From NCBI RefSeq assembly GCF_903914075.1, contig NZ_CAIWNQ010000009.1:62001-126000 (forward strand): a stretch of DNA of 64,000 nucleotides. Direction: 5' to 3'. The notes below the pieces were generated by a model that ran no database searches, was not told where the DNA came from, and was given only the letters and a program-made list of their open reading frames with translations. Made by a program: the position numbers and the translations under genes. Every line of letters begins with the position of its first letter. The stretch's first letter is position 1. The DNA comes from Ruegeria sp. THAF57. GTDB taxonomy: Bacteria > Pseudomonadota > Alphaproteobacteria > Rhodobacterales > Rhodobacteraceae. Below are positions 13,091-38,604 of this stretch, piece after piece.

Positions 13091-13196
13091 CATGGAACAA
13101 ACTACTGTGTTCAAGTCGTCCTCAGCCATTTCCGACGCAACGCACAAAATCCCCCTTGCGCATCCAAATCGCCGGGTATAGACCCCGCGCCACGGT

Positions 13197-13273
13197 CGGA
13201 GTGTAGCTCAGCCTGGTAGAGCACTGTCTTCGGGAGGCAGGGGTCGGAGGTTCGAATCCTCTCACTCCGACCA
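13197..13273 (+). tRNA. tRNA-Pro(CGG)
   Basis: 77-nt cloverleaf: acceptor CGGAGTG/CACTCCG; D-arm GCTCAGCCTGGTAGAGC; anticodon stem CTGTC/GGCAG with loop TTCGGGA, giving anticodon CGG; T-arm with TTCGAAT; discriminator A and encoded CCA. The only tRNA found in the window. Confidence 0.97.
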
Positions 13274-13474
13274 ATAAAATCAATTGCCTGTATTTATTTA
13301 GCGCCTTCCCAAAGCATCGAGTTTTCCTAACATGTTGGGGAAACCTTATTCCCTCACCCGTTCATTTTGTCGGTAAGGTTTGCATCTAATAAACGATGCG
13401 GTCGGTTTGAACTGGTCAGAGTGCCTACGCAGGCGGCGATTGCGGCCCTTACATGGGATCGTTTGACCTACAGC

Positions 13475-13768
13475 TCACTCAACCAGTTCGTAGTGCTTGA
13501 TTAACCTGCTTTCGACCAACTCGGCTTCGGCAGGATCAATATGCGGAGAGCTATAGTCCTCGCCAACAAACTTCTTAAGCGAGGCCAAGTCTTTCCAAAC
13601 CATCACGAAACAGAATTCTCTTGGGCTATCGCTGTGCGGAGTACCCGGTAAAACCTGAACAATCCCTGCAGTTTCTTTCATCATCGGAATTGCGGTTTTG
13701 TGGAAGAATTCCGCAAATTCGTCTTCCTTACCTTCTTTTACCTGAACTTGAAAAATGCGCATTATCAT
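13475..13768 (-). CDS. Antibiotic biosynthesis monooxygenase (ABM)-fold protein
   Basis: 97-residue dimeric alpha+beta-barrel (ABM) domain protein. The N-terminal strand MRIFQVQVKEGKEDEFAEF and the later FVMVWKDLASLKKFVGEDY match the ABM layout. These small proteins are cofactor-free oxygenases, haem-degrading relatives or stress proteins; the substrate cannot be read. GGGAGG with good spacing supports the ATG at 13768; a second ATG lies two codons in. It stands alone, with about 200 bp of non-coding DNA on the tRNA side. A second ABM-like gene at 23826 shares the local pattern GEDY followed by P-AEA. Confidence 0.75.
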   Translation of the reverse strand: MIMRIFQVQVKEGKEDEFAEFFHKTAIPMMKETAGIVQVLPGTPHSDSPREFCFVMVWKDLASLKKFVGEDYSSPHIDPAEAELVESRLIKHYELVE

Positions 13769-13993
13769 GCCGTTTCCTCCCTCAGAGACTTACTGGCGTG
13801 CATAAATGCCTCACACAGGATCATACCATCAGAGCCTGTGAATGTCCTGACTGCGCTTATGCGTCGCTTCGTCGGCGGGGTTATCTGTGGATTGGACCGT
13901 CAAACAAAAGTATAGCGTCTTGGCCGCACCAAATTGCCAGAACAGCAAGAAATACAAAATCGTGCTATGCTGCCCAGTTATAGGGGGCGAACA

Positions 13994-14824
13994 ATGGCTA
14001 CTTTAGATTTTTCTGAATTTGGAACCGCCGAAAAGGAAGGATGGTCCCGGCCCGACACTGCCGAAAGTTATGCGGCCAGTTTGGAAGGCACCGCAGCCCA
14101 AAGCGTCCCGGAACTTTTACGGCAAGCGCGGATCGGCCCAGGAAAGCAGGTGCTGGATCTGTGTTGCGGACCGGGCGTTGTCACCGCCGGGCTGCTTGCA
14201 GCCGGAGCCGAAGCGACTGGCTTGGATTTCTCGCCCGCAATGTTGCAGTTGGCACGCCAAAATGTGCCAGATGCAGTCTTCGTTGAGGGTGATGCTATGA
14301 ACCTTCCTTTTGAAGACGCCTGTTTTGACGCCGTAACAATTGGCTTTGGCATTTTGCATGTTCCAGACCCGGTTAGCGTTCTGCAAGAGGCGCACAGGGT
14401 TCTGCGTAAGGGGGGACGCTTGTCCTTTTCGGTCTGGCATGGCCCAACCATCCCCACAATACTTGGGGATTTGTTTCAAGTGATCGGTCGCTTGGGGGAC
14501 CCGTCAGTTCAGTTGCCGCCCGGCCCCGGTTTGCACGACTATGCTGACCCCGAGATAGTTGACACCACGCTAACAAAAGCGGGCTTCTCGGATATCTCGC
14601 AGAGCTTGGTGCAAAATTTTGTTGAAACGCAAAACGCCGACGGCATGGTCACTTTGTTCATGGAGGGCACAGTTCGGGGTGGTTTGCTTTTGCGCTCGCA
14701 ACCGACCGAAACGCTTGCCGATATTCAGGCGGCTATGAGTGAGCTCATCAAAACCAAATATGGGTCAAATGGCCCTTGGAAGCTTCCGATGCCGTCTGTG
14801 ATTTCAGCGGCAACAGCTATCTGA
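13994..14824 (+). CDS. UbiE/class I SAM-dependent methyltransferase
   Basis: 276-residue methyltransferase. Motif I is VLDLCCGPGVVTAGLLAAG (about residues 51-69), followed by the acidic LDFSPAML ribose site and motif post-I/II around FEDACFDAVTIGFGILHVPD. Overall type resembles UbiE or small-molecule methyltransferases; the substrate is unknown. I start at ATG 13994 behind GGGGGCGAAC, not at the upstream in-frame start 13934. It is the only gene here facing right before a convergent arylsulfatase. Confidence 0.8.
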   Translation: MATLDFSEFGTAEKEGWSRPDTAESYAASLEGTAAQSVPELLRQARIGPGKQVLDLCCGPGVVTAGLLAAGAEATGLDFSPAMLQLARQNVPDAVFVEGDAMNLPFEDACFDAVTIGFGILHVPDPVSVLQEAHRVLRKGGRLSFSVWHGPTIPTILGDLFQVIGRLGDPSVQLPPGPGLHDYADPEIVDTTLTKAGFSDISQSLVQNFVETQNADGMVTLFMEGTVRGGLLLRSQPTETLADIQAAMSELIKTKYGSNGPWKLPMPSVISAATAI

Positions 14825-25100: not shown

Positions 25101-25823
25101 TCACCCAAAAATATAACCGATACCCCGAACGGTGCGAATGACCTCGGGTTTAGAAGGGTTCCTTTCGATCTTTCGCCGCAGGCGGGAAATGCGCAGGTCG
25201 ATTGAGCGGTCGAAAGGTTCCCAACCGCGGTCGTGGGCCCGTTCTAAAAGCTGGTCCCGGTTCAGAACTCGGCCCCGGTTCTCGGCAAAAACCCGAAGCA
25301 AGTTAAATTCCATCGCGGTCACCGGAATTTCCTGCCCCTCGGTGTCGAAAAGACGCGCCGCGTCCAAATCCAGGCAGCAGCTTCCGAATGGCACTTTGGC
25401 CGCAAGACAGGTTTGGTTGGCAGGAGCGGCCGGTTCGCCACCACCCCCTGCTGCGGGCCAGCGCCGAATGGCAGCTTTGATCCGCGCCTCCAACTCGCGC
25501 AAGTCAACGGGTTTACCAAGATAATCATCCGCACCCATCTCAAGCCCAACAACACGGTCGATGACGTCAGCCGCAGCGGTCAACATAATGACCGGAACTT
25601 CTGTTTCTTGCCGCAGCCGTTGCAATGCAGCCAAACCATTCTGGCCCGGCATGTTGATGTCCAAAACAATCAGATCCGGTGCAGGACCGTCGCTGATACA
25701 GTCAAACAGCGCGTCTGCATTCTCGGCCTCGCGGACGTCAAAGCCGCGCTCGGCCAGGTATTCCGCGACCATTTCCCGAAGATGCGGTTCGTCATCGCAG
25801 ATGATGATGTTTCCATTGCTCAT
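25101..25823 (-). CDS. OmpR-family response regulator
   Basis: 240-residue two-component regulator. Receiver domain residues 5-118 with acidic pair D10/D11, phosphoacceptor D55 (VLDINMPG) and K105-region (LGKP). A Gly/Ala-rich linker is followed by an OmpR/PhoB winged helix from about 150 to 238, ending with RTVRGIGYIFG. The start is ATG 25823, overlapping the stop of the kinase by 4 bp; the upstream extension to 25916 is not conserved-looking. Cognate kinase immediately upstream. Targets unknown. Confidence 0.93.
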   Translation of the reverse strand: MSNGNIIICDDEPHLREMVAEYLAERGFDVREAENADALFDCISDGPAPDLIVLDINMPGQNGLAALQRLRQETEVPVIMLTAAADVIDRVVGLEMGADDYLGKPVDLRELEARIKAAIRRWPAAGGGGEPAAPANQTCLAAKVPFGSCCLDLDAARLFDTEGQEIPVTAMEFNLLRVFAENRGRVLNRDQLLERAHDRGWEPFDRSIDLRISRLRRKIERNPSKPEVIRTVRGIGYIFG

Positions 25824-28078
25824 GACCGGGGCCCGCCTGCCTCGTGCGAATTGAAAATCTGGTCGACCAGTCTTAACAGGTCCTGAGGCGCAATTGGCTT
25901 TTCCATGTATCTGCAATTGTTGGATTTTAGAAACTCTATCGTCTTACGGCTCATTGCGTTACCTGTCACGAAACCAAAGCGGGTCAAGCACTCGGGCTTT
26001 TGCTGCGCAATCAGCTTCAACAATTCCGTCCCATCCATACCCGGCATTGTCATGTCACTGAGTATGACATCGTATTCGTCCCGCTCCAGCAAATCCAATG
26101 CGTCCCGGGAATCGTTGCAAGTTGTCACTTCGTATCCAGCATCCTCGAGAATATCGGAAATCAACTCGGTTACATCTTGCTCGTCGTCGATGCTGAGTAC
26201 CTTCAGCCTCGAGGTGTTCGAGGACAGCGTTTCTTCGGCGTTCGGAGCGGCCTGATCAGGTGATGCTGGTTTCAGGCAAATCCGAAATCTTGCACCTTCA
26301 CCTGGTGCTGTTTCGACGGTCAACCTGCCGCCATGACTGGTCACGATGCGATGGCAAAAGGCCAGTCCAACCCCCGTCCCTTCGCCCGCCACCTTGGTCG
26401 TGAAGAACGGCTCGAAAATCCGGGACTGGATGGCGGGGTCAATTCCATGCCCGTTGTCGTCGACTTCGATGAAAACATGACCAGACTTCGGTTCCGTCCC
26501 GCTGCGCAGTGTGACGCGGCCCTGTTCGCCCAAACTCGCGACAGCATGTTCCGCGTTGACCACAAGATTGGTCAAAACCTGAACAATCTGATCGGGGTCT
26601 GCATCAACACATGGCGCATTTGGGTCCAACTCGACCCGCACATCTGCGCCGGAACTCTTCAACCCGTACCCCGAAATCTCGAGCGCAGCTTCGACAAGAG
26701 TTCCGACATCGCATTGCACAATTTCCATCGGACGTTGGCGGGCCATGGCCAAGAACGCCCGCACGATCCTTGTGCAGCGTTCAGCGGCTTGACCAATACG
26801 TTCCACCCGGCGCTTCAGAACAGGATCATCAACCTTGTCCTGCAACATCAGCGCATAGCCGACGACGATGGACAGAGGGTTGTTCAACTCGTGCGCCACA
26901 CCCGCAAGCAACGATCCCAACGCTGACAATTTCTCGTTCTGATGTGCGATTTCGCGCTGCTTTTCCAGTTCGTCCTGCATCTGCAGGTAATCGGTCATGT
27001 CTCGCGTTGATGATACGATGACGTTCTCACCCTTGAAGTCGATCACCCGGGCCGATGTCAGCCCCTGCATGACGCTTCCATCCTGTTTAAGGAATCGGAC
27101 GGGGTAATTGTCCAACTGCCCCGTGGGTAACAGCGCATCCAGATAGGCCTGTCGATCCTCGGGGTTCAGAAAGAACCCCAGCGTGGTATCCAATTGACCA
27201 AAACGTTCCCGCGAGGCCGGAGGGCAATAGAGGATTCTGCCGTCATCCACACGCGAGACCAGAAAAGGCGTGGGCGAGGCATCAACAATCGTGCGTACCA
27301 GCAGATCGGCTTCGCGCTGCGCCTGCTCAATCTGATCCCGTCCGCTCTGGTCCGAGAGGGTCAGCAACAATTCGCCCGCGTCGCTTTTCCTGCCAGAGAA
27401 GGTGACTGGACGACCATCGCGCGTGTCCAGCCTGGTTTCTGCAACCGTTTGCGCGCTCAACCGGATCAGGGCGTCCTTGCTGTCTGAATGGGGTGCAAAA
27501 TGTCCCCTTGCCGCAACAGCACACGCAAAATCCTCGAACCGAATGCCCGGTTGCACATCTCGCTCGGCAAGACCAACAAAACTCGAGAATGCGGGATTGC
27601 AGACGATCAGGCAGCCATCCCGATCCCACAGGCTGATGCCATCCCTCAACGGGTGAATTGCGCTGTGCAGCAAGTCGCGTGCGGTGTCCGTGTCAACCTG
27701 CCGCGCAGCGGCGTCTTCCCTACCTCCCAGCGGTGCAAGCACATACCCGCGGTCATTGCCGCACTCAAAGCTGGAAACGACCACCACTTGATTGCCTTGC
27801 AGTTCCATCGTGACGCTGGCGTTTCCACCAAGCAACAGGCTCGCGGCCGTTCTTGCAGAACAGACCGTTTCTTCGGCGGTCAACTTCAATGCGTTGGACA
27901 AAATCTCATCAAGAAAAGCGCGTTCTGACAAACTTTCAGGTGCAGGCAGCCCAGCCGGGATGACACCGTTCCATTCCACGCACAAACCAGCCCTGTCGAA
28001 ACGGAAAAAACTGACGGTTGCGTCAGATTTTTGGGGCTGGGACTTGGCGGCGCGTGAATGCATCTGGTTTCTCTTCAA
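25820..28078 (-). CDS. Soluble hybrid sensor histidine kinase (PAS-PAS-HisKA-HATPase-REC)
   Basis: 752-residue kinase with no membrane helix, so it senses a cytoplasmic signal. An N-terminal unrecognised region to about 130; PAS-like domains at about 133-245 and 260-365; coiled-coil EKQREIAHQNEKLSALGS; phosphoacceptor H396 in GVAHELNNPLS; HATPase with N-box NLVVNAEHAV and G-boxes DNGHGIDP, GEGTGVGL. The C-terminal receiver domain starts near 625 with phosphoacceptor D675 (LSDMTMPG). No Hpt domain is visible, so the receiver may act as a phosphate sink or feedback domain for the OmpR-type partner at 25101. A 15-bp repeat element lies 61 nt before its start. Confidence 0.92.
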   Translation of the reverse strand: MKRNQMHSRAAKSQPQKSDATVSFFRFDRAGLCVEWNGVIPAGLPAPESLSERAFLDEILSNALKLTAEETVCSARTAASLLLGGNASVTMELQGNQVVVVSSFECGNDRGYVLAPLGGREDAAARQVDTDTARDLLHSAIHPLRDGISLWDRDGCLIVCNPAFSSFVGLAERDVQPGIRFEDFACAVAARGHFAPHSDSKDALIRLSAQTVAETRLDTRDGRPVTFSGRKSDAGELLLTLSDQSGRDQIEQAQREADLLVRTIVDASPTPFLVSRVDDGRILYCPPASRERFGQLDTTLGFFLNPEDRQAYLDALLPTGQLDNYPVRFLKQDGSVMQGLTSARVIDFKGENVIVSSTRDMTDYLQMQDELEKQREIAHQNEKLSALGSLLAGVAHELNNPLSIVVGYALMLQDKVDDPVLKRRVERIGQAAERCTRIVRAFLAMARQRPMEIVQCDVGTLVEAALEISGYGLKSSGADVRVELDPNAPCVDADPDQIVQVLTNLVVNAEHAVASLGEQGRVTLRSGTEPKSGHVFIEVDDNGHGIDPAIQSRIFEPFFTTKVAGEGTGVGLAFCHRIVTSHGGRLTVETAPGEGARFRICLKPASPDQAAPNAEETLSSNTSRLKVLSIDDEQDVTELISDILEDAGYEVTTCNDSRDALDLLERDEYDVILSDMTMPGMDGTELLKLIAQQKPECLTRFGFVTGNAMSRKTIEFLKSNNCRYMEKPIAPQDLLRLVDQIFNSHEAGGPRS

Positions 28079-28186: not shown

Positions 28187-28215
28187 AAAAAAGGCCCCCT
28201 CGTTCAGAGGGGGCC
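28187..28215 (-). terminator. Intrinsic terminator of the exported-protein gene
   Basis: Perfect 8-bp stem GGCCCCCT (28193-28200) / AGGGGGCC (28208-28215), with six A directly left of it, giving a T-run when read on the minus strand. It ends the minus-strand block that begins at 35041. Confidence 0.9.
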
Positions 28216-28234: not shown

Positions 28235-29254
28235 TCAGTTCAATCGAAGAGTCTTGGGCTTGCTTCCACCCGACTGGACCTTGAGACCGCCATTGCCCGG
28301 GCTTTTGCAATTCATCGAATACTTGGCACCGTTCGACTGGAACTTGGGCGAGACACCTTCGATTTTCACCCAACCGTTTTCCGGGCCGTTGCCGTTGGGA
28401 ATATCCCAGGTGTGCTGCACCACGGCGATCTTGTTGGGTGCTGTCTTGGCGGTAAAGACGTTGCTTTTCTTGCCAGTGTTATGCACGAACCGATACTTGA
28501 TCTGAGCGTTGGCCGTATTGGTGGAAATTGCGGTTGTAGTCTTGATTTTGCAGGCCCCGTTGGGCGGCGCGATTTCAGTCAGTTTCATCGTAGCCTTCTT
28601 TACGGAAACCGGCTGGGTATAGCCTTTAACGCCACCCCCGGCCAAAGGCACGCGCGGCCCTGAGAACTTGCTGCAGACGATCTTGACCGTCTTCGGCGCA
28701 GAATATTCCCAGATTTGGTTATTGGACCCGGCGCCCGACGCCTCGACCGTGGTTTTCAGCGAAACCTTAAAGCTCACCTCGTGGTTAGAACCAAAGATTT
28801 GCTTGTCCGATTTACCCTGGTTGCGCAGGACGGTTGCTTTCATTTCGCACATGCTGACAGCCGCGGATTCGATCGTGCCGACGCTAAGGGCGAAGGGCCA
28901 GTTATAGTCGATGGACTTAGGGCGATTGCCGACCGAATAGGTGACTGTCTTTTTGTAAAATGACGTGCCTTGAACCTTGGCGGCGATACCGAAACCATGG
29001 GTGATTTCAGGCTCCATGGTCCAATTTTTGATCCGCCCTGCGGTGCCGGTGTCATATTTGAGATTGGCACCGACCACGAACTTTCCGTTCAGATCCAGCT
29101 TGGTATAATTCTGACCGTTGCTGAGAACTTTCAGCGAGGTCGGGTTTGTGTTGGTTACGGTCGCCACACCACTGTCGGCCGAGGCCACATGCGGCAAGGC
29201 GGCAAAAATGCCAGAGATCAGAGCTACGGTTTTGATACTGGTTACGGTCTTCAT
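28235..29254 (-). CDS. Exported protein of unknown family
   Basis: 339-residue secreted protein I do not recognise. Signal peptide MKTVTSIKTVALISGIFAAL, cleavage after ASA. The mature chain is rich in Thr, Lys, Ser and Asn with regular beta-strand spacing, and has four Cys (in SMCEM, IVCSK, GACKI, MNCKS) that could form two disulfides. The N-half (to about residue 220) and the C-half (ACKIKTTTAIS to the end) look like separate beta-sandwich units. No transmembrane segment after the signal. ATG 29254 is nine bases from GAAGGA; another ATG two codons earlier is closer to it. It is separated from the protease by 185 bp and may have its own promoter. It could be an effector or substrate of the neighbouring surface module. 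Confidence 0.75.
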   Translation of the reverse strand: MKTVTSIKTVALISGIFAALPHVASADSGVATVTNTNPTSLKVLSNGQNYTKLDLNGKFVVGANLKYDTGTAGRIKNWTMEPEITHGFGIAAKVQGTSFYKKTVTYSVGNRPKSIDYNWPFALSVGTIESAAVSMCEMKATVLRNQGKSDKQIFGSNHEVSFKVSLKTTVEASGAGSNNQIWEYSAPKTVKIVCSKFSGPRVPLAGGGVKGYTQPVSVKKATMKLTEIAPPNGACKIKTTTAISTNTANAQIKYRFVHNTGKKSNVFTAKTAPNKIAVVQHTWDIPNGNGPENGWVKIEGVSPKFQSNGAKYSMNCKSPGNGGLKVQSGGSKPKTLRLN

Positions 29255-29384
29255 AATCATAATTCCTTCAGCTTTCTGTTTGCTTGTGACTGTCTGTCGT
29301 CTGGCACCCGAGAAAGGTTCAAATTTTTTTTGAGGGCCTGTTCGAACTGCGCCTGCGGCGTGAGAATAAGGTTCAGACGTATCT

Positions 29385-29404
29385 GGCAGATGTCCGGCAG
29401 ATGT
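29385..29404. repeat. Tandem 9-bp direct repeat GGCAGATGT
   Basis: GGCAGATGT occurs at 29385-29393 and again at 29396-29404, an 11-bp period (about one helical turn). It lies in the 185-bp gap between the protease gene and the exported-protein gene, 131-150 bp before the latter's start. A protein-binding site is possible. Confidence 0.35.
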
Positions 29405-29439
29405 TTGGAATGTATCGACTTTGTCAGCGCCTTGTGCGG

Positions 29440-30855
29440 TCAGCACCCACCGGATTGCACAAGGCCATAACCAAAGCGCGTATCTCGGCCTGACGGACCA
29501 AGATCAACGGCTGTCTGGCGCAAGATGCGTCGCGCTTTGTCCAGAGACAGCCCGCCAAGGGATGCGTGCCGGGCCAGCAAAGCGGTCACAAGCGGCGCGG
29601 CATAAGATGTCCCCGACCGATAACCGCCGCCTTTCGCTGTAATGACCCATAAGTCGACCCCCGGCGCAGAGAACTCGATATGAGGGCCCTTGTTTGCCTT
29701 GCCATAAATCCGGCGGGCCGCGTCCACTGCTGTCACGGCAATGGTATCGGGGGATGCCGCTGGCAAACGCGGCGCGTTGCTGCTGTCATTTCCGGCGGCT
29801 GCAACCACGACCATGCCACGCGCGCGGGCTATGGCAAGCAATTCTACAAACACCGCGTTAGGCGCGCCTGACATCGACATATTGACCAACTGAACATTGC
29901 GCGCGCGTAGCCAGTCCAGACCCGTGGCAATATCTTCCAACCGTGCACCTTCACGGCCTTTGTCGCGACCAAAGGCTTCGGCCGCAAAAATCTCTGAACC
30001 CGGTGCCAAGCCGATAATCCCGCCTGAGCCATTCCCGGCGATTAACCCTACGACTGCCGTAGCATGGTCGGTTCCCGAGGGCCTGAGCCCCGGCGTCAGC
30101 ACAGACTGACGCTGGATGCGCACCCCGGCAAGCGCCGGGTGGCCCGCCTGAACAGGGCCGTCGATTACTCCGACCCGCACGGCGCGCCGAAGAGCGCAGG
30201 ATTGCTCAGGAGGATCTCCTACCATCGCGGCAGCATAGAGACGCGGCGGGGCCGCAAACCCGTAAATGTGATGGCGGTCAACGTCAGCATCTGGCGCAGG
30301 GATAGCCAAAGCAGCGCGGGCGTCTGCAAGTGTCAGCCCTTGGGGGAAAGCATAAAACAGCATGACCCGGCCCATCTGAGGTAGATTTCGCCTGCGCAAA
30401 AGCTGCGCCCCACGATCTTGCAACACATCCCGTGCCGTTTGCTCTTGTCGCGCTGGGATAAGAACAGTGTATTCCGGTGAACCGTCCGGCGCAGGCACCA
30501 TGTCCCGCGCAGCGCGCTCAGTGTTGCGCTGGCGTTGTGCGCAAAGCGTGATGGACCCAAGGTCTCGTCCGGTTGTTCCACGGATGGCCCAGACAAGGCG
30601 ATAGGTTTCGCCCGCCCGAAGCCCCCGCGACGGCACAGCGATCGTGACTTGGCTGCGTGACCAGCGTAGCACCTGCATTTTGAGGGTCTGACCCCGGCTG
30701 GTCGCGAGAATGTCACTGGGTCTTCCGCCAAAATCGCGGGCTTCAATTCGGATGGTATCTCTGGGCTTTACGCATCCCGTGGCGATGATCCGAAAGTCTT
30801 CGGCCTGCGCTGCAATCGGTAAAGCAAGCAATAGAAGGAGCATGAAAATACGCAT
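29440..30855 (-). CDS. Exported subtilisin-like serine protease (S8)
   Basis: 471-residue periplasmic or secreted subtilase. Signal peptide MRIFMLLLLLALPIAAQA. Residues 20-115 form an IPT/Ig-like beta domain not usual in subtilases. Residues about 127-200 look like an I9/S8 propeptide (YTVLIPA strand, helix, strand, helix, strand). Catalytic triad D232 (GVIDGPV), H264 (TDHATAVVG) and S417 (GTSYAAP), with oxyanion N356 (AAGNDS). The start is ATG 30855, behind GGAGGGG and 2 bp after the anti-sigma stop; an overlapping TTG at 30861 is less likely. Co-transcription with a sigma/anti-sigma pair suggests regulated proteolysis, perhaps of the anti-sigma factor or of the secreted partners. Confidence 0.93.
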   Translation of the reverse strand: MRIFMLLLLLALPIAAQAEDFRIIATGCVKPRDTIRIEARDFGGRPSDILATSRGQTLKMQVLRWSRSQVTIAVPSRGLRAGETYRLVWAIRGTTGRDLGSITLCAQRQRNTERAARDMVPAPDGSPEYTVLIPARQEQTARDVLQDRGAQLLRRRNLPQMGRVMLFYAFPQGLTLADARAALAIPAPDADVDRHHIYGFAAPPRLYAAAMVGDPPEQSCALRRAVRVGVIDGPVQAGHPALAGVRIQRQSVLTPGLRPSGTDHATAVVGLIAGNGSGGIIGLAPGSEIFAAEAFGRDKGREGARLEDIATGLDWLRARNVQLVNMSMSGAPNAVFVELLAIARARGMVVVAAAGNDSSNAPRLPAASPDTIAVTAVDAARRIYGKANKGPHIEFSAPGVDLWVITAKGGGYRSGTSYAAPLVTALLARHASLGGLSLDKARRILRQTAVDLGPSGRDTRFGYGLVQSGGC

Positions 30856-30857
30856 GA

Positions 30858-31466
30858 TCAATCCCCTCCCTCGACTTCGACGCTTTCCACAATCCCCGTT
30901 GCGGCGTTTAGACGGTCCAACGCACGGGCGGCGGCGCCTTCGTCTTTCGCGGCCAGCGTATACAGACCCAAAGCCGACGGCCCGGACACGATGGTCAAGT
31001 CCAATTCCAGCAAAAGGGCGCGGATTTCTTTTTCGGTGGCTGTCGCTGCAAATGCCACTGTCAGGGTTGGCCCAGTGTCCAGAGATTCAGGACCACCATC
31101 GGCCAGCTCGACATCTGGTCCAGTGTTCAAATAGGGCAACGTCGCCTGAACGGCCAGCAAAGCCATTGCTGCAATGGCGGCGATTTTCCAAAGTCCGGGC
31201 TTTGTTGCTTTTGGCTGCGTCACGGAGCGATTTGCATTTGCATCCCGCATAAGCCTTGCCAACCCAAACTCACCCGGAGAGGTTTCGACTTCGGTCCCTT
31301 GCATTTGTATCCGCGCGGCCGTCAAAGCAGCCAACTCGGCCCGTAGTTCGGGATTTGCAGCAACGGCCTGTTCAAGCACACGGCGCTCTTCACCCTCCAA
31401 GGTATCATTTGCAAGAAACACCAACAGGTCTTGAGGTTCATCATCCTCGCTATTTGGACCGGTCAT
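30858..31466 (-). CDS. Membrane anti-sigma factor with propeptide-like periplasmic domain
   Basis: 202-residue single-pass protein. Residues about 10-55 (LLVFLANDTLEGEERRVLEQ) form an anti-sigma domain of the RskA/ChrR-like helical type, without a clear zinc site. A membrane helix spans about 92-111. The periplasmic part ends in a compact unit at 134-199 with strand-helix-strand-helix-strand order (LTVAFA, EKEIRALLLELD, LTIVSG, ALGLYTLAA, RALDRLNA, VESVEVE). This parallels the S8 propeptide region of the next gene's product. It overlaps the ECF sigma gene by 4 bp and ends 2 bp before the protease. Role: hold the sigma factor at the membrane until a periplasmic signal; the protease link is inference. 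Confidence 0.85.
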   Translation of the reverse strand: MTGPNSEDDEPQDLLVFLANDTLEGEERRVLEQAVAANPELRAELAALTAARIQMQGTEVETSPGEFGLARLMRDANANRSVTQPKATKPGLWKIAAIAAMALLAVQATLPYLNTGPDVELADGGPESLDTGPTLTVAFAATATEKEIRALLLELDLTIVSGPSALGLYTLAAKDEGAAARALDRLNAATGIVESVEVEGGD

Positions 31467-32017
31467 GTGGCTGCCTCCTTCATCCGACCTGACAGGCAGC
31501 GCAACAAAAGCTTCTTTGCGTGAAAAATTCGCGTTTTGATCGTGTTTTCAGGGGCGTCAACCACGCGCGAAATCTCGCCGTAACTCATGTCTTCGTAGAA
31601 CGCGAGCTCAATGGCGCTGCGGTGATCGGCTTTAAGCCCCTCAAGACAGAACCGAAGATGTTCGGCCTCTTGCGCGGCGGCAAGGCAGGCCACGGCATCA
31701 GGCCCTTCATCAACCTGCTCGGGCAGGTCATCGCTTGGCGAGATACGTTTATGTTTTCTGAAGTGATCCATCGTCTTCCTGTAGGCAATTCCAAATACCC
31801 AGGTCTTGACAGCAGACCGACCCTCGAACTTACCGGCCGAGCGCCAGACTTCCATGAAGACCTCATGAAGTATGTCGCCCGCTTCGAACGGATCGTTCAT
31901 TTTTGAAGCAATAAATCTGTAAACCGGCTTCTCCAGCGCCCGGTACAAACCGGCCAAAGCGGTCTTGTCCCCGCCCGCGACGGCCTGCAGCAAGGCGTTC
32001 AGTTGTGCGTTATTCAT
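31463..32017 (-). CDS. ECF-family RNA polymerase sigma factor
   Basis: 184-residue extracytoplasmic-function sigma factor. Region 2 runs about residues 25-95, with FEAGDILHEVFMEVW and the -10-binding KTWVFGIAYRKTMDHFRKHKR. Region 4 runs about 120-178, with the helix-turn-helix MSYGEISRVVDAPENTIKTR. No C-terminal extension. ATG 32017 lies 2 bp after the stop of the secreted-protein gene, and its stop overlaps the anti-sigma start, so all are one transcription unit and probably autoregulated. No unambiguous ECF -35/-10 pair was found before 35041. Confidence 0.95.
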   Translation of the reverse strand: MNNAQLNALLQAVAGGDKTALAGLYRALEKPVYRFIASKMNDPFEAGDILHEVFMEVWRSAGKFEGRSAVKTWVFGIAYRKTMDHFRKHKRISPSDDLPEQVDEGPDAVACLAAAQEAEHLRFCLEGLKADHRSAIELAFYEDMSYGEISRVVDAPENTIKTRIFHAKKLLLRCLSGRMKEAAT

Positions 32018-32019
32018 GG

Positions 32020-33153
32020 CTATTGCCTAAGCTGCAAAACAGGTTGCTGGCTTGGCGAAGTGTTCAGTCCACGTACCGAAGACACAGCCAACAGGTTCCC
32101 TGCAGTGTCAAACGCGGCAACCCGCCAGCGCAAAACCCTGATCTTACGCAAGCGATCAAGCGTGAAGTCTTTCAATCGCGTTGACCGTTCTTTGGTATCC
32201 AAAGCGGCGATCTGTTTTGGCGCAAGCCCACCGGCACCCGAATCCAGAAATTCCAGACGATAGAGGCTTGCGTTGGGAACCGGTTGCCAACTGAACACAG
32301 TCGCCGCGCTTAGCCCTGCGCCCGGTTGGGGCGCCGAAAGATTTAGCATTGGCTTGGAGGCTGGATCCGGCGTTTGCGGCTCAATGGGCACGGCGGTGAC
32401 CGTATAGCGCAGATCGGGCACGGATAGCGTAAAGCTGCCTCGCTGTCCGGGCGAGGGTACGAACCGCACCCTGTAGATGCCGGGTCGATCTACCGGCAGC
32501 GGCGGGCTTTCAAATGTGACGCGCCGTGCGCCTGCCAGAACCTGACGAACTCTTCCGACGACACGGAAATCACCCGCGACGTCCGACGGACCGGCAACCT
32601 CCCACGCGCCGTCAAGGATGCCGCGTCCGTTCGTAGTCAACTCAAGCCGGGCCGCCAATTGTGAGCCGCTGGGAACCACCCGGAAAAGACTGTCGTCGTC
32701 AAAGGCAAGATCAGCAAAACGCACGGCCAGTGGACCGCCGCTGGTCGTTTGCAGGCGCAAGGTTGCGGGCGCCGAGGTTCCGTTGAAATCCGTGAAGCTG
32801 CGGGTCAGAACGGCGTTGCCCGCCTGCGCAATCCGTGCCGCTGTTGTCCGGTCAACAACAAGCCGTTCGGACAGTGTTACAAAGATCAGACCACCGCCTG
32901 GATGCTGCACCGTTCGGCGCAGCGGGCCGCCAATAGTACCGCCGGTGCTGAGTTGCGCGCCGGGCGAAGTGACCGTAACGGCTCTTGCTGTTCGCGAGAT
33001 TACCCCGACGCGCCAGTTCAAGGTTATTGCGGATTCACCCGACCCATTGACGCGCGCCGTCGGAGGATTGACGGAAACCGGCCCCGCTGCATGAGCCAAG
33101 CCGCACAAAAGGGACAAGACAAAGCTGAGTATGAGTGTTGGCAGAAATCGCAT
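32020..33153 (-). CDS. Secreted Ig/fibronectin-like protein of the surface module
   Basis: 377-residue exported protein of unknown function. Signal peptide MRFLPTLILSFVLSLLCGLAHA. The N-terminal part (about 24-115) has an Ig-like sandwich pattern beginning VSVNPPTARVNGSG. The C-terminal 90 residues look like a fibronectin-type fold (ATVFSWQPVPNASLYRLEF to LRWRVAAFDTAGNLLAVSSVR). No Cys in the mature chain and no membrane segment. It lies 10 bp after the beta-barrel gene and 2 bp before the sigma factor. A periplasmic or surface partner of the barrel, or the ligand that signals to the anti-sigma factor, is plausible but unproven. Confidence 0.8.
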   Translation of the reverse strand: MRFLPTLILSFVLSLLCGLAHAAGPVSVNPPTARVNGSGESAITLNWRVGVISRTARAVTVTSPGAQLSTGGTIGGPLRRTVQHPGGGLIFVTLSERLVVDRTTAARIAQAGNAVLTRSFTDFNGTSAPATLRLQTTSGGPLAVRFADLAFDDDSLFRVVPSGSQLAARLELTTNGRGILDGAWEVAGPSDVAGDFRVVGRVRQVLAGARRVTFESPPLPVDRPGIYRVRFVPSPGQRGSFTLSVPDLRYTVTAVPIEPQTPDPASKPMLNLSAPQPGAGLSAATVFSWQPVPNASLYRLEFLDSGAGGLAPKQIAALDTKERSTRLKDFTLDRLRKIRVLRWRVAAFDTAGNLLAVSSVRGLNTSPSQQPVLQLRQ

Positions 33154-33163
33154 ACTCCGCCTC

Positions 33164-35041
33164 CTACCTGAAGAAATTCGTTGTTGCGCGAAGGGTCAGG
33201 CCGACCAGAGTATCCTCGTCCCCGCCACTTTCGCTGGCATAGGGCCCGTCGGCGCGGCTTGCGCTCAGAACCAGTTCGGCTGTTGGGTGGAACCGCCACG
33301 CCAGTTCGGTTGCATAATACTCTCCGTCCAGCGCGAAGGGTTCATCAGTGCGCGTTATGCCGGTATCGAGCCGAAAAATCAGATCATCCGGCCGCAGCGC
33401 ATAGCTGAAGCCCAAAGTGGCTTCGTACCGCTCCCATGTATCAAAATCGCCATCCACACGCGTGTATCCCGCGGTGCCATTCACATTCGCCCGATCGTTG
33501 ACGCCATAGTCAAAAGCTGCGTTCAAACTGTGGCTGTCGGTGTCGATATCCAACACCCCCTGATCATCTTCACGGATGCGGACATAATCCAGTGACCAAT
33601 TGCCGACATCCCCCAGCTTGTCGAACCCCACATACAAAGTTGTTGAGGTATAATCCTCCGGCGGGGGTGCCGCGTTGGGGGTCGTCAGCCGATCCTGTTC
33701 GATATAGCCACCCCCAAAACGCAGGGCTGTACCCTGCCAGAACCCCTCGCCCTGCAAGTCATAGCGGAGGTCGGTCAGGACTTGCGAAATCCGATCTTCG
33801 GGCCAGTCGGATGGCCCCCCGACATTGGTTTTCTGAGTATCTGCAAAGATGTTCAAAGCGAACCGGTTGGCGCTGTAATCCATCGTGAGTCGCCAGGTTT
33901 CGGCCCCGACTGCAACACCGGGATTGGCGAGCGAAAAATAGTCCTGATCTGCTTTTTCATAGCCCAACCCCACGGTTAAGGCCCGGTCACCCGCATCCGT
34001 GTTCAAAATGTCGTAGCTTAGGTGGGACAGAACCGCATTTGCACTGGTTTCCGGCAATGGGCCGCCGTCGTCTTCGTCCCATTCGGTCTGTGACCAAACC
34101 GACCCATAATACAATCGCCCACCCAACAATGTCCCGTCCAGCGAAAGCGACGAGCCTTGACCGGAACCTGTCGCGCTGCCGCCATAGGGGTCACCATCGC
34201 CGGTATAGGTCTGCACGGACACCCTGAAGTCCTGCGTAGCAAAAGGTTGGAACGCGAACCTTGCCCCCTGCATGCGGCTGTCTTCGTCCGCCAACCCTGT
34301 GAAGTTGGCGGCTCCCAATGCGTCGGCACTTTGCGACGCGAAGGCCCCCAGTTCCACGCGCTGATCAAACAGGCCCATGTCGACCGATAGACCGCGCCGG
34401 GAAACATCGCCCACAAGCGCGCGGTCATAGTCGAGCATCTGATGGCCCAATCGCCCAGTTAAGTTTGTGGCACCCAGCGTGCGATTGAACTCGAACAGAT
34501 ATTCGGCAATATCTACCGGGTTTTCGGTGATCCTCTCGACGGGGCGCGTTGAGCCCAAGTAACTGACTTGTCCGCGAAAACTACCTTCTTCATTTTCCAC
34601 GCCAAATGAACCGCTGCTTGAGGCGTTTGCGGCTTCGTCGCTGTTGAGAGATTGGATGCTGGCCTCGTGGCTGGCGTCAATGGAAACTGTTAACCGGCTG
34701 CGGGCCGTGGTCAGGAAGCTGTAACTGGCGATCGGCACAAAGCCGCCACCCTCAAGCAGATAGACGGTCACATCGTGGAACTCACCCGCCAAAGGGGTGA
34801 CAATGTTCAGAACAAGCTGTCCATTCTCGACCGCCGCGACATCGGTCATGTCGATGCCGTCAACTTCGATTGCCACCTCTCCGGTCAGGCTGGAAATGTC
34901 GAGCGGCAGGAAAAGCGTTTGCCCGGCTTCCAGCGTCCCAAGATCTTCAATCAGATCCTGCGCGACTGCGGGGGTGGTCGCCATGGCCAATCCACCGATG
35001 CACAAAAAACACCGGACTTTCTGTTTGAATTGCTGCCGCAA
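33164..35041 (-). CDS. Outer-membrane beta-barrel protein of the surface module
   Basis: 625-residue outer-membrane protein. Signal MRQQFKQKVRCFLCIGGLAMATTPAVAQ. Residues about 29-115 form a periplasmic or plug-like domain (DLGTLEAGQTLFLPLDISS). From about 120 there are about 25 amphipathic strands rich in aromatic and Gly residues, ending TNFFR. The terminal FFR rather than plain F is a slight departure from the usual barrel signal. The start is TTG 35041, preceded by GAGGG at about seven bases; no ATG gives a signal peptide. First gene of the operon with the secreted protein, sigma, anti-sigma and protease. Likely a large pore, adhesin or secretion barrel; not recognisably an autotransporter or TonB receptor. 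Confidence 0.82.
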   Translation of the reverse strand: MRQQFKQKVRCFLCIGGLAMATTPAVAQDLIEDLGTLEAGQTLFLPLDISSLTGEVAIEVDGIDMTDVAAVENGQLVLNIVTPLAGEFHDVTVYLLEGGGFVPIASYSFLTTARSRLTVSIDASHEASIQSLNSDEAANASSSGSFGVENEEGSFRGQVSYLGSTRPVERITENPVDIAEYLFEFNRTLGATNLTGRLGHQMLDYDRALVGDVSRRGLSVDMGLFDQRVELGAFASQSADALGAANFTGLADEDSRMQGARFAFQPFATQDFRVSVQTYTGDGDPYGGSATGSGQGSSLSLDGTLLGGRLYYGSVWSQTEWDEDDGGPLPETSANAVLSHLSYDILNTDAGDRALTVGLGYEKADQDYFSLANPGVAVGAETWRLTMDYSANRFALNIFADTQKTNVGGPSDWPEDRISQVLTDLRYDLQGEGFWQGTALRFGGGYIEQDRLTTPNAAPPPEDYTSTTLYVGFDKLGDVGNWSLDYVRIREDDQGVLDIDTDSHSLNAAFDYGVNDRANVNGTAGYTRVDGDFDTWERYEATLGFSYALRPDDLIFRLDTGITRTDEPFALDGEYYATELAWRFHPTAELVLSASRADGPYASESGGDEDTLVGLTLRATTNFFR

Positions 35042-35317: not shown

Positions 35318-36292
35318 ATGGTGATGGCTGAATACGAGTTTGTTGAAAGTGCCCCGTTCGAAGCGGGGTTTGCAGAAGTGTATGAATGGCAGATTGCCCC
35401 CTTTTTGCGCGGCAAAGAGGAAGAGCGCCAAGCCGCTATCTCGCGCAGCATGGTCTGGGTGAAACTTATTGGCATTGTCTCGGTCGTTCTGGCTGCTTTG
35501 GCATCGTATTACGTCCACCCGCTCCTGGGTATTTTTCCACTGGGGTTTGGTGGCGGTGCAGCGTTGATTATCTATCTCGAACGCGGAAGCCGCATCAGCA
35601 AGGACGTGTCGGGTTTCGTGCGTCCGATCTTGTGCAAGTTTCTAGGCAACATGGACTTGCACCCACAGGTCCCCGCCGACTTTATGCCAATAGGCCGCCT
35701 TGTTGCCCTGCAGATTTTACCCAAGGCCGAGCGGATACGCGAGGACACAGCCATCACGGGAACATGGCGGGATACAAACTACAAGCTGCTGAAGATGAGT
35801 TGCTCTGAAAGCTATCGCGATCACAATGACGACCGGAAATACAGAACCTTGTTCGCCGGAATCGTGCTTGAGATCGACTGCCCGGTCTACATGCCACGCA
35901 CTGTGTTCGTCAAGGATTTTGGCGAGACCCTGAACAAGCTGTATTCTTGGGCGTCCCGCAATACCTTGCCAACTCATCGCTGGGATTTGGGTGTTGAAGA
36001 TGCCGAACAGGTTTTTGAGGTCTACACTGACGACCCGGCCCAACTTGGTCAGTATCTTAAACCTCAATTCGCCGATACGCTGACGGACATTGCCGGACGG
36101 TTTCAGGGAGGTAAGGATTACTGCGCAGCGGCCTTTTCTGGCAGGCGGTTCTATCTGGCACTCAGCTTGCCGCATAGCTTTTTGGGGTTTGATGTCGCCG
36201 GCGCCCCCCTGAGCGAGGCTAATGACAGCATCCACCGTGCTTTGCGCGATCTGATGACGCCAAGGCAGATCATCGACGCCCTGCACGCCTGA
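35318..36292 (+). CDS. DUF3137 membrane protein
   Basis: 324-residue DUF3137 protein of unknown function. Two membrane helices at about 44-62 and 66-86 follow a short cytoplasmic N-terminus. The remaining 235 residues form a soluble domain with YKLLKMSCSESYRDHNDDRKYRTLFAG-type family spacing and a C-terminal FYLALSLPHSFLGFD. Some family members are linked to fibronectin or lemA-like genes. ATG 35318 and ATG 35324 are both possible; the first has AAAAGG nearby. Divergent from the beta-barrel operon. Confidence 0.82.
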   Translation: MVMAEYEFVESAPFEAGFAEVYEWQIAPFLRGKEEERQAAISRSMVWVKLIGIVSVVLAALASYYVHPLLGIFPLGFGGGAALIIYLERGSRISKDVSGFVRPILCKFLGNMDLHPQVPADFMPIGRLVALQILPKAERIREDTAITGTWRDTNYKLLKMSCSESYRDHNDDRKYRTLFAGIVLEIDCPVYMPRTVFVKDFGETLNKLYSWASRNTLPTHRWDLGVEDAEQVFEVYTDDPAQLGQYLKPQFADTLTDIAGRFQGGKDYCAAAFSGRRFYLALSLPHSFLGFDVAGAPLSEANDSIHRALRDLMTPRQIIDALHA

Positions 36293-36522: not shown

Positions 36523-37920
36523 TCAATTCAAAGCCTCCCAAACCTCGCTGATCACATCAGCAGCCATCAACACATCATTCCGCGTCGTATCGAATTGCCC
36601 CACCTGAAAGCGGATGATTTTGCGGCCGTTGAACATGCCCTGCGTCAGATAAATCCGACCATCGTCATTCAGCGCATCCACCAGACGTTGCTGCATCGCG
36701 TCGTCACCCGGGCAGCGGAACGAAAACAGGCTCAGGATGGGGCCTGTCGTGATCTCGAACCCGTCCATTGCACCGATTATTTTGGCCAGCTCATTTGCCC
36801 AGTCAACATGGTTGCGGATACGTTCACGCAGGCCATCCAGACCGTAAGAGCGCAGCAGGAACCAGATTTTCAACGCCCTGAACCTGCGGCCCAACGGAAT
36901 TGTCCATTCGGAATAGTTTGTTACCTCGGCCCCTGTGGTTTTCAGGTATTCGGGCTCGATCTTCAAAGTGTTGAGTTGCGGAGTTGCGTCCCGCAAAAAC
37001 TGGATCGCGCAATCGAACTGGGCGCCAAGCCACTTATGTGGATTAAAGACAATAGTGTCATAGCGATCCGCCCCGGCCCACAACGCCTGACGGAACTCGG
37101 GGCAAATCATGGCGGACCCGGCCCAAGCGGCATCAAGATGGGTGTATAGGTCGTGCTTCTGCGCGATATCCGCAACGGCCATCAGATCATCGCAGGCCCC
37201 TACACCCGTACCCCCGGTGATCGCAATGATCCCGGCAGGAACATGCCCGGCGGCTAAGTCGCTTTGAATCGCCGCCTCAAGTGCGCCGGGATCAATCGCG
37301 TAAGTTGACCCCCGCGTCGGCAATTTGACCAGATTGTCCTGCCCGATCCCGGCAACCCAACAGGCCCGGTCAATGGACGAATGCACCTGATCCGAGCAGT
37401 AAACCCGCAGCGCGCCTTTCGTATTCAACCCTTCGCGGTTGCCGGTAAACCCGGTGGCGCGCTCTCGCATGGTCAGCACCGCCGACAAAGTGGCCGAAGA
37501 CGCGCTGTCCTGAATGACCCCTGTCATGCCATCAGGCAGACCAAGTGCCTGGCGCAGCCAATCGACCATCACGGTTTCAACTTCGGTCGCGGCGGGCGAA
37601 GTTTGCCACAGCATGCATTGAGCAGCGATTGTGGTCACCAACATCTCGGCCAACATCGAAGGCGGCGCGGCGTTGGCTGGGAAATAGGCAAAGAAACGCG
37701 GGTGTTGCCAATGGGTCATTCCCGGCATGACGATCCGTTCAAAATCGGCCATGATGGATTCCATCGCTTGCCCCGAGTCTGGCGGCGAAGCGTCAATCTG
37801 GACGGCAATATCCCCCGGTTTTATCTGTGCCCGGACAGGGCGATCCGACAGGGTTTGGTGATAATCGGCAGCCCATTTCGAAATGTGCTGTCCCCAATGC
37901 GAAAACTCATCCCAGTTCAT
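36523..37920 (-). CDS. Group II PLP-dependent amino acid decarboxylase
   Basis: 465-residue decarboxylase of the aromatic-L-amino-acid / glutamate family, removing the carboxylate of an amino acid to give an amine. Schiff-base Lys296 in NPHKWLGAQ and D263 (HLDAAWAG) contacting the PLP pyridine. The N-terminal MTHWQHPRFFAYFPANA is typical of aromatic (Tyr/Phe/Trp) decarboxylases. The start is ATG 37920 (MNWDEF), not the in-frame start at 37950. It stands alone, with a long gap upstream. The substrate is not resolved; DOPA or tyrosine decarboxylase-like is the best guess. Confidence 0.92.
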   Translation of the reverse strand: MNWDEFSHWGQHISKWAADYHQTLSDRPVRAQIKPGDIAVQIDASPPDSGQAMESIMADFERIVMPGMTHWQHPRFFAYFPANAAPPSMLAEMLVTTIAAQCMLWQTSPAATEVETVMVDWLRQALGLPDGMTGVIQDSASSATLSAVLTMRERATGFTGNREGLNTKGALRVYCSDQVHSSIDRACWVAGIGQDNLVKLPTRGSTYAIDPGALEAAIQSDLAAGHVPAGIIAITGGTGVGACDDLMAVADIAQKHDLYTHLDAAWAGSAMICPEFRQALWAGADRYDTIVFNPHKWLGAQFDCAIQFLRDATPQLNTLKIEPEYLKTTGAEVTNYSEWTIPLGRRFRALKIWFLLRSYGLDGLRERIRNHVDWANELAKIIGAMDGFEITTGPILSLFSFRCPGDDAMQQRLVDALNDDGRIYLTQGMFNGRKIIRFQVGQFDTTRNDVLMAADVISEVWEALN

Positions 37921-38604
37921 CCATTCGCCCTTGTGTCGCCCGCTGATCAACTGGACATGACCTCTGCGGCAGTCGTTGTATTTGTAGCTGAAAGACTTCG
38001 GCCTAGACCTAAAAGCCTATATTGGCCTGACCCGTTCCGGAACTGCCAAAATGGGGTGGTTAGATATCAATTTCGCCCTTGCAGCTGCCCCACCCAAGGG
38101 CACCAACAAAAGCGCCGTATCGTTCATCGCGAATTCGCCGGCGCATTTCTTGGCTTAATCGGGAAGAATCCGAGACCGAGCCAGCGCACTTTCCGAAGCT
38201 GTTCCGGCACGGTTACCACCTTCCCCAAATAAACAGCGCGCGCATTTGTTTGATTTCAAGCGCGCCAAAGTGGCTGTTTCTTATGCAAAGCATGGAAACA
38301 GGTCCGTGTTCTGCAGGCGTTTCACACATCAGCAGTAGACCAGAGCACCTCTGCCTGCCTTTAATGTTCTGATATACTGTCGGACCATTTAGGTGAAGGA
38401 AAGGGCAGGTGAAAGGCTGATTGGCAACCCTGTGTCATTCGACCAGCATGAGCAAAACAACGGTTTTGTTTAACGCATTGACTGACATCTGCTACTGCTT
38501 GTGGCGTGTATTTCAGAATCAATGGAGAGGTTTACACCACTTCCTCCTCCATCGGTTAGCCCTGTTTCTGCGGGTTCTTGTGACTAGTGTGAAGGTAAAT
38601 CGGT
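37921..38604. other. 684-bp region without a recognisable gene
   Basis: Upstream region of the decarboxylase (minus) and of the glycosyltransferase operon (plus). Short open frames here have no family features. A nested hairpin at 38231-38279 pairs AAACAGC with GCTGTTT outside and GCGCGC with GCGCGC inside. A shorter AAAAC-AACG-GTTTT hairpin lies near 38454-38467. No tRNA, transposon ends or clear pseudogene was seen. Confidence 0.5.

Follow-up and report, generated by a model that had tools for sequence, protein, structure and literature searches.

A subtilase prodomain-like domain on an anti-sigma factor encoded between an ECF sigma factor and an exported S8 protease in Ruegeria sp. THAF57, and its possible role in docking the protease

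Introduction

For many extracytoplasmic function (ECF) sigma factors we know of neither the signal nor the protease that first cuts the anti-sigma factor. A locus of Ruegeria sp. THAF57 raises the question of how an exported protease might be connected to a sigma switch encoded beside it. In the window, by which we mean the whole 64,000 nucleotide (nt) stretch of contig NZ_CAIWNQ010000009.1 that was analysed, a block of minus-strand genes at 28235..35041 encodes, in the order of transcription, an outer-membrane barrel-like protein, a secreted immunoglobulin/fibronectin type III (Ig/FN3)-like protein, an ECF sigma factor, a membrane anti-sigma factor, an exported S8 (subtilisin-like) protease and a further exported protein, which we refer to as gene 6. 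An earlier note on this DNA had read the first five genes as one self-regulating system; it missed the prodomain-like periplasmic end of the anti-sigma factor and the TGAACC-N16-CGAC promoter that are described here. The first of these features suggests how protease and switch connect. We propose a cassette in which S8 docks on the tethered prodomain-like domain, the anti-sigma factor is lost and the sigma factor activates genes for surface and secreted proteins, a proposal to which we give about an even chance. Both the signal and the first protease may then be encoded within the same few kilobases, next to a readable promoter that hints at the output.

The prodomain-like end of the anti-sigma factor

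The sigma gene (31463..32017, on the minus strand, as are all features of the block) encodes a 184 residue protein with regions sigma2 and sigma4 only, as is characteristic of ECF sigma factors: Sigma70_r2 at residues 24-91 (6.4e-14) and Sigma70_r4_2 at 121-171 (1.1e-11), both over the Pfam cut-off. The 202 residue anti-sigma factor (30858..31466) was assigned from the position of its gene directly after that of the sigma factor and from weak NCBIfam anti-sigma matches that are far under cut-off; zf-HC2 was matched at E<=1 by 10 of 18 anti-sigma members, the window protein not being among them. Its AlphaFold2 model (mean pLDDT 81.5, pTM 0.44) consists of a helical part predicted to be cytoplasmic, a single long helix at residues 93-113 that is the predicted membrane helix, and a putative periplasmic part whose last domain spans residues 130-202 (30861..31079).

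In the model this last domain has a beta-alpha-beta-beta-alpha-beta fold with a free C-terminal tail. Eight of the top 12 structural matches in its fold search were POIA1, subtilisin propeptides or EpiP; POIA1 was matched both alone and with subtilisin (1itp, 1v5i), and the Foldseek list for the anti-sigma factor includes 3wqb, the complex of the Aeromonas sobria protease ASP with ORF2. The fervidolysin prodomain, PF22148, was matched by 15 of 31 anti-sigma domains at E<=1 (best 7.2e-6), and no other Pfam family was matched by more than one. The window domain scored 15.2 bits against this family, under its cut-off of 21, and the domain of one relative (L153) was over the cut-off at 26.1 bits. 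A sequence search of the PDB with the domain profile returned a single, unrelated match (E 0.61). Comparison of the domain profile with that of the S8 protease's own prodomain gave 3.5% at first and, with larger alignments, 13.5-16.5% in local and 1.8-2.2% in global mode, every other pair giving at most 0.9%, so that the match to the partner's prodomain is collinear and weak but alone among the controls. Usually little or nothing follows the domain in the protein, the tail having a median of 2 residues and a maximum of 27. Judged by sequence profiles and models, subtilisin inhibitors and propeptides of the fervidolysin/I9 type are the best match for the periplasmic end of this anti-sigma factor.

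The partner protease (29440..30861; 473 residues from TTG 30861, or 471 from ATG 30855) has the subtilase fold, the Asp/His/Ser triad and the oxyanion Asn. It matched PF00082 with 104 bits, over the Pfam cut-off, and the catalytic residues D234, H266 and S419 (encoded within 29605..30162) were, with the oxyanion residue N358, invariant in all 51 aligned S8 proteins. No other protein of the 4.28 Mb genome matched Peptidase_S8 at E<=0.001. Its AlphaFold2 model (pLDDT 91.2) best matched the folds of pro-Tk-subtilisin (E 4.8e-22) and pro-subtilisin E, with fervidolysin at rank 17. The model includes an N-terminal prodomain at residues 129-202 (30256..30477), again beta-alpha-beta-beta-alpha-beta, with a block pLDDT of 91-98 up to residue 200; taken alone, this segment had no Pfam match. 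A reading as a mycosin, the protease of type VII secretion, was rejected, the TIGR03921 score being 98.2 bits against a cut-off of 278.75.

Between the membrane helix and the prodomain-like domain, 85 of 106 non-identical anti-sigma factors carry an aromatic-x-x-[AL]-small motif (e.g., FELAG, YEQAS, FQTAS), which shuffled linkers carried in a mean of 22 and a maximum of 34 cases (200 shuffles); the regular expression was composed after the sequences had been inspected. The window protein has the variant VELAD (residues 119-123, 31098..31112), which falls outside this expression. Such local conservation within a linker that otherwise varies freely would be expected of a dedicated cleavage site, and VELAD is marked as a candidate site-1 cleavage region. 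A signal peptidase site in the linker was considered and not adopted.

Conservation of the sigma, anti-sigma and S8 core

Relatives of the anti-sigma factor were found in 18 of 149 genomes of the family, that of the window included. Of 18 neighbourhoods outside the window, 17 hold sigma, anti-sigma and S8 genes together and one (L039) is without S8. In five of the 17 family loci (L028, L031, L033, L036, and L037) the anti-sigma gene is flanked by the sigma and S8 genes and has the opposite orientation. A further set of 67 loci came from a scan of named species genomes for which the seed was VxGP[ST]A[LI]GLY, a pattern in the last domain of the anti-sigma factor; conservation of this pattern in the 67 loci is by construction, and some contigs overlap the first set. 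An S8 gene is near 61 of these 67 anti-sigma genes, within 200 nt in 58 (the others being L080, L085, and L105). Among the six loci without S8, L088 and L090 run off the contig end, and L099, L100, L101 and L106, three labelled Deltaproteobacteria and one labelled "bacterium", show none on the available sequence, which is short for L100 and L101. Two small exported-looking proteins (about 140 and 105 residues) follow the anti-sigma factor in L100, L101 and L106, and in L099 only the second kind was called; the pair tested had no confident Pfam family.

Relatives of the S8 protease (E<=1e-20) occur at 27 places in 24 of the 149 genomes, and 26 of the 27 lie beside a sigma/anti-sigma pair, with only L113 beside neither. 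The 26 consist of the 18 known loci (window included), L112 of the same type, and seven loci (L110, L111, and L114-L118) in which S8 stands beside a sigma factor and an anti-sigma factor without the detected domain, L116 being cut before the domain region by the contig end. The anti-sigma factors of these seven have a different, mostly Cys-containing C-terminal region and often a divergent arrangement, and they appear to be a second pairing of protease and sigma factor. As contrary to its one-system reading, the earlier note had named barrel or protease homologues occurring mostly without the sigma/anti-sigma pair; this pattern was not seen, because S8 is so regularly paired and the barrel was found only at this locus.

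The association of domain and protease was also apparent in a phylum-wide sample of 398 genomes from 213 genera, in which the anti-sigma family model gave 39 matches in 38 genomes (own included) and 24 genera. With domain detection at E<=0.01, S8 was present in the retrieved stretch of 31 of 32 loci with the domain versus one of six without it, among the 38 loci outside the window's own genome (Fisher p 7e-5, a value that ignores relatedness, two genera supplying many of the loci). The exception with the domain and no S8, L164, has a caspase-family protease directly after the anti-sigma gene (PF00656 1.8e-39; L164:3153-3956, exported as judged by eye). Likewise, a caspase-family protein follows the anti-sigma gene in L181 (1.7e-10; L181:2244-3815, also exported by eye), where the prodomain-like domain was not detected. 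It is as if the protease were exchangeable. Sigma and anti-sigma genes together were not found in any of 72,556 plasmid records. These data support the ECF sigma factor, membrane anti-sigma factor and exported S8 protease as the conserved core of the cassette.

A candidate promoter and its targets

The TGAACC motif was first spotted by eye in the rearranged loci and counted afterwards. In eight rearranged loci, TGAAC-N17-CGAC lies 51-85 nt before the anti-sigma start in six; in two, one of them L036 with TGAACG, it is 44-48 nt upstream of S8, and in L033 it is at the called S8 start. Across 111 loci there were 97 TGAACC-N16-CGAC sites in 59 loci, compared with 0-14 per spacing at 14 other spacings (mean 5.2). 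In 12 of the 111 loci the motif preceded the coding core of the sigma gene by at most 250 nt, and in 10 that of the anti-sigma gene, with none at the other spacings from 12 to 20. In 22 of 60 loci a same-strand site followed the S8 stop codon by no more than 400 nt; among the controls here, only spacing 15 gave any sites (five), whereas spacings 12-14 and 17-20, and spacing 16 on the opposite strand, gave none.

The window has a single exact site, at 29296..29321, and none before S8 or the barrel gene. It begins 118 nt after S8, and its first base is 61 nt before ATG 29260, the best start of gene 6 (28235..29260, 341 residues) rather than the GTG 29446 of the mechanical open reading frame (ORF). 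Gene 6 encodes an exported protein with no family over cut-off, and its homologues follow S8 in L041 and L042 with the same promoter. From this positioning we infer that the sigma factor reads TGAACC-N16-CGAC, and the predicted visible output of the switch in the window is gene 6. Of the 22 sites after S8, 11, including that of the window, are followed within 170 nt by an exported-looking ORF (by eye) and the other 11 by no convincing ORF. The genes behind sites encode CARDB (L040, L041), curlin-repeat (L051), RTX (L092) and BTRD1-repeat (L048) proteins; the gene behind the site in L096 is RTX by its repeats only. The curlin-repeat protein of L051 (L051:2501-2896) raises the possibility that the sigma factor controls curli-like fibres in some species.

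In relatives, self-regulation is supported by the sites before sigma and anti-sigma genes and by others that could serve the block itself. In the close relatives L041 and L042 they precede a small gene of CARDB type whose end is 78 and 0 nt, respectively, from the start of the barrel gene, and the block may therefore be under the sigma factor there; in L073 and L077 the motif is 120 and 358 nt before the barrel gene. A de novo two-box search of 66 regions, extending at most 300 nt upstream of sigma or barrel genes, yielded no motif that was accepted: the best candidate for sigma-first operons was GC-rich words in 9 of 52 (5-7 in five shuffles), and that for barrel- or Ig-first operons was in 3 of 14 (2-3 in shuffles), with no common motif.

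A large regulon in the genome of the window was considered and rejected, as the 29 TGAACC-N16-CGAC sites compare with 31 for a frame-matched N19 control. All 29 lie inside some mechanical ORF of more than 150 residues, the site of the window being within the over-long GTG ORF of gene 6. Counts of N16 and N19 sites were 640 and 526 in 14 genomes with the module and 360 and 350 in 14 without it, a difference that is not significant (p 0.086); an N18 control (293 with, 230 without), which differs in codon frame, was discounted. The regulon in the window's own genome is probably small because there is no general surplus of sites.

The barrel and Ig proteins and the layout of the block

The barrel-like protein (33164..35041; 625 residues, TTG start, signal peptide by eye) and the Ig/FN3-like protein (32020..33153; 377 residue ORF) have, like gene 6, no Pfam or NCBIfam family over cut-off, and the term barrel therefore rests on a sequence pattern recognized by eye. 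The order barrel-Ig-sigma-anti-sigma-S8 is found in 9 of the 67 loci (L040, L041, L042, L057, L070, L073, L083, L087, and L091), which span Alpha- and Gammaproteobacteria, including Alcanivorax and Cellvibrionaceae, and Ig homologues lie between barrel and sigma genes in 9 of the 67. A barrel without Ig is ahead of sigma in five further loci (L068, L077, L078, L089, and L094). Direct search with phmmer found barrel homologues in 13 of the 67 loci (in L053 on the other strand) and clustering added two more; the barrels of L070 and L087 and the Ig protein of L097 are supported by clustering alone. In L091 the barrel is split into two ORFs (292 and 247 residues; L091:4576-6324), and a second anti-sigma/sigma pair is found downstream at 13072-14333. 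The Rhodoferax locus L097 has, after S8, a barrel-like (by eye) protein of 687 residues, with only a sub-cut-off DUF481 match, and an Ig-family protein, the promoter motif being ahead of both. Within the 149 family genomes the barrel occurs in three (own included), each time at this locus.

These findings support the five genes as one evolutionary unit, as the earlier note had supposed, with the protease in the core and the barrel and Ig proteins as accessory members. The pair is likely to be a surface input or an export arm. The packing that had been described was also confirmed: the gaps of 10, 2, -4 and 2 bp hold with S8 starting at ATG 30855, which has a good ribosome site ahead of it (by eye), while a start at TTG 30861 would turn the last gap into a 4 bp overlap. 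The block is closed, as reported, by an exported protein, gene 6, and an intrinsic terminator at 28193..28215. The terminator scan gave 13 sites overall, with 8.7 expected by chance, and this one stands out by its 8 G-C pairs among 9 and six T in the T run.

Directly downstream of the block, 25820-28078 encodes a hybrid histidine kinase that has both PAS domains and a receiver. On the other side are a DUF3137 protein (35318-36292), divergent from the barrel gene, and a pyridoxal-dependent decarboxylase (36523-37950) whose nearest NCBIfam, diaminobutyrate decarboxylase, is matched far under its cut-off.

How the protease may act on the switch

In the mechanism that we propose, the anti-sigma factor would hold the ECF sigma factor at the inner membrane and display the prodomain-like domain as its C-terminal end in the periplasm. 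Having shed its own prodomain, S8 would recognize the tethered domain in much the way that it would bind that prodomain or an I9 inhibitor, and docking would lead to the cutting or loss of the anti-sigma factor, most likely in the conserved juxtamembrane linker, with general proteases finishing its degradation. The targets of the freed sigma factor, transcribed from TGAACC-N16-CGAC, would be gene 6 in the window and, in other loci, genes for secreted proteins such as those with CARDB, curlin-repeat or RTX features, with the sigma or anti-sigma gene itself among the targets in many relatives. Docking, for which homology and synteny argue, is the simplest account because the domain travels with S8 in several gene orders; cleavage and the direction of the signal are proposals. 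Destruction of the anti-sigma factor is preferred for two reasons: it is the regulator, and no free inhibitor, that carries the domain, and in the window the visible output is gene 6 and not the protease. We further speculate that the cell reads the occupancy of the protease active site. The targets (gene 6, CARDB, curlin-repeat, and RTX proteins) would be surface proteins that S8 processes, such that scarce substrate would leave S8 idle to attack the anti-sigma factor and more substrate would be made, while a filled S8 would spare the anti-sigma factor and the genes would be off. This extension we consider unlikely.

Several observations weigh against docking and fit an anti-sigma domain that is a general ferredoxin-like sensor for some other ligand, with S8 merely a co-transcribed neighbor. 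Folds of the ferredoxin-like type are common, and for this domain their scores come close to those of prodomain folds; in four of the 67 loci the domain is present but the available sequence contains no S8; and the seven S8 genes paired with another type of anti-sigma factor are, with those four loci, contrary to a strict rule that the domain predicts the protease. Set against this are PF22148 being alone among Pfam families in matching more than one domain, the caspase-family proteases that directly follow the anti-sigma gene in the S8-less L164 and L181, and a domain-S8 association that holds through rearranged gene order. We attach little credence to the general sensor. Much the same low credence is given to the self-regulation of the earlier note, in which sigma, anti-sigma, barrel and protease form one transcript and barrel and protease are the main regulated output, an idea that is compatible with docking. 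The tight packing, the recurrence of the five-gene order, and in relatives the motif before sigma or anti-sigma genes, the CARDB-gene sites of L041 and L042 that could read the whole block, and the sites before the barrel in L073 and L077 all speak for it. In the window itself, however, the one exact site lies between S8 and gene 6, and the barrel-first operons share no motif.

I9 proteins are both inhibitors and chaperones of subtilases, and S8 might be the output of the switch and not its sensor. The anti-sigma domain would then be a tethered inhibitor or folding helper that renders S8 harmless within the cell, S8 would reach the surface with the aid of the barrel and Ig proteins, and the free state of the domain would report how much S8 remains inside. 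The presence of 3wqb in the Foldseek list is consistent with this, and in the split locus L028 a TGAACC site precedes both S8 and the anti-sigma gene; L036 likewise has TGAACC ahead of the anti-sigma gene, with the variant TGAACG ahead of S8. A precedent is Aeromonas sobria ORF2, which is encoded beside a subtilase and acts on it in trans through its C-terminus (PMC5638518). However, the window S8 carries its own prodomain in the model, unlike the Aeromonas enzyme, and no exact site precedes S8 or the barrel in the window, and we regard S8 as the output as rather unlikely. If docking is correct, a domain at the end of an anti-sigma factor would predict the adjacent protease as a general rule; 31 of the 38 phylum-sample loci outside the window's own genome have both domain and S8.

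Comparison with known systems

The literature searched, within one library's coverage, did not point to an anti-sigma factor with a subtilase prodomain, and no subtilase is named in the available part of PMC7406223. ECF54 sigma factors resemble that of the window in having a conserved subtilase neighbor, with carboxypeptidase and CHAT proteins also nearby, but they are described as being without an anti-sigma factor (PMC8999054), whereas the window sigma factor has one beside it, with a prodomain-like domain. The sigmaP-RsiP system is an example of ECF sigma factors released from membrane anti-sigma factors by regulated proteolysis: a sigma factor is encoded beside a membrane anti-sigma factor with a periplasmic part, release by proteolysis is a known route, and the site-1 protease is the signal peptidase SipP (PMC8844934). 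Here, the cassette differs in encoding an exported S8 protease and in the prodomain-like domain of its anti-sigma factor.

The inhibitors that the domain resembles are differently deployed. POIA1, an I9 inhibitor, is free and, unlike the anti-sigma domain, is not tethered to a transcription switch. Aeromonas ORF2, whose structure was also matched in the fold search with the anti-sigma factor, is described as a trans-acting inhibitor and chaperone of ASP through its C-terminus, and a reference title there calls ASP propeptide-deficient (PMC5638518). ORF2 is not fused to a regulator and ASP lacks a propeptide of its own, whereas the window S8 has a predicted one at residues 129-202. The animal site-1 protease with SPRING may offer a likeness in mechanism. 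This subtilase is controlled by prodomain displacement (PMC11231238) in a eukaryotic Golgi system in which SPRING is not an anti-sigma factor, and the likeness would be that the occupancy of a subtilase by its prodomain decides whether a membrane-bound regulator is cut.

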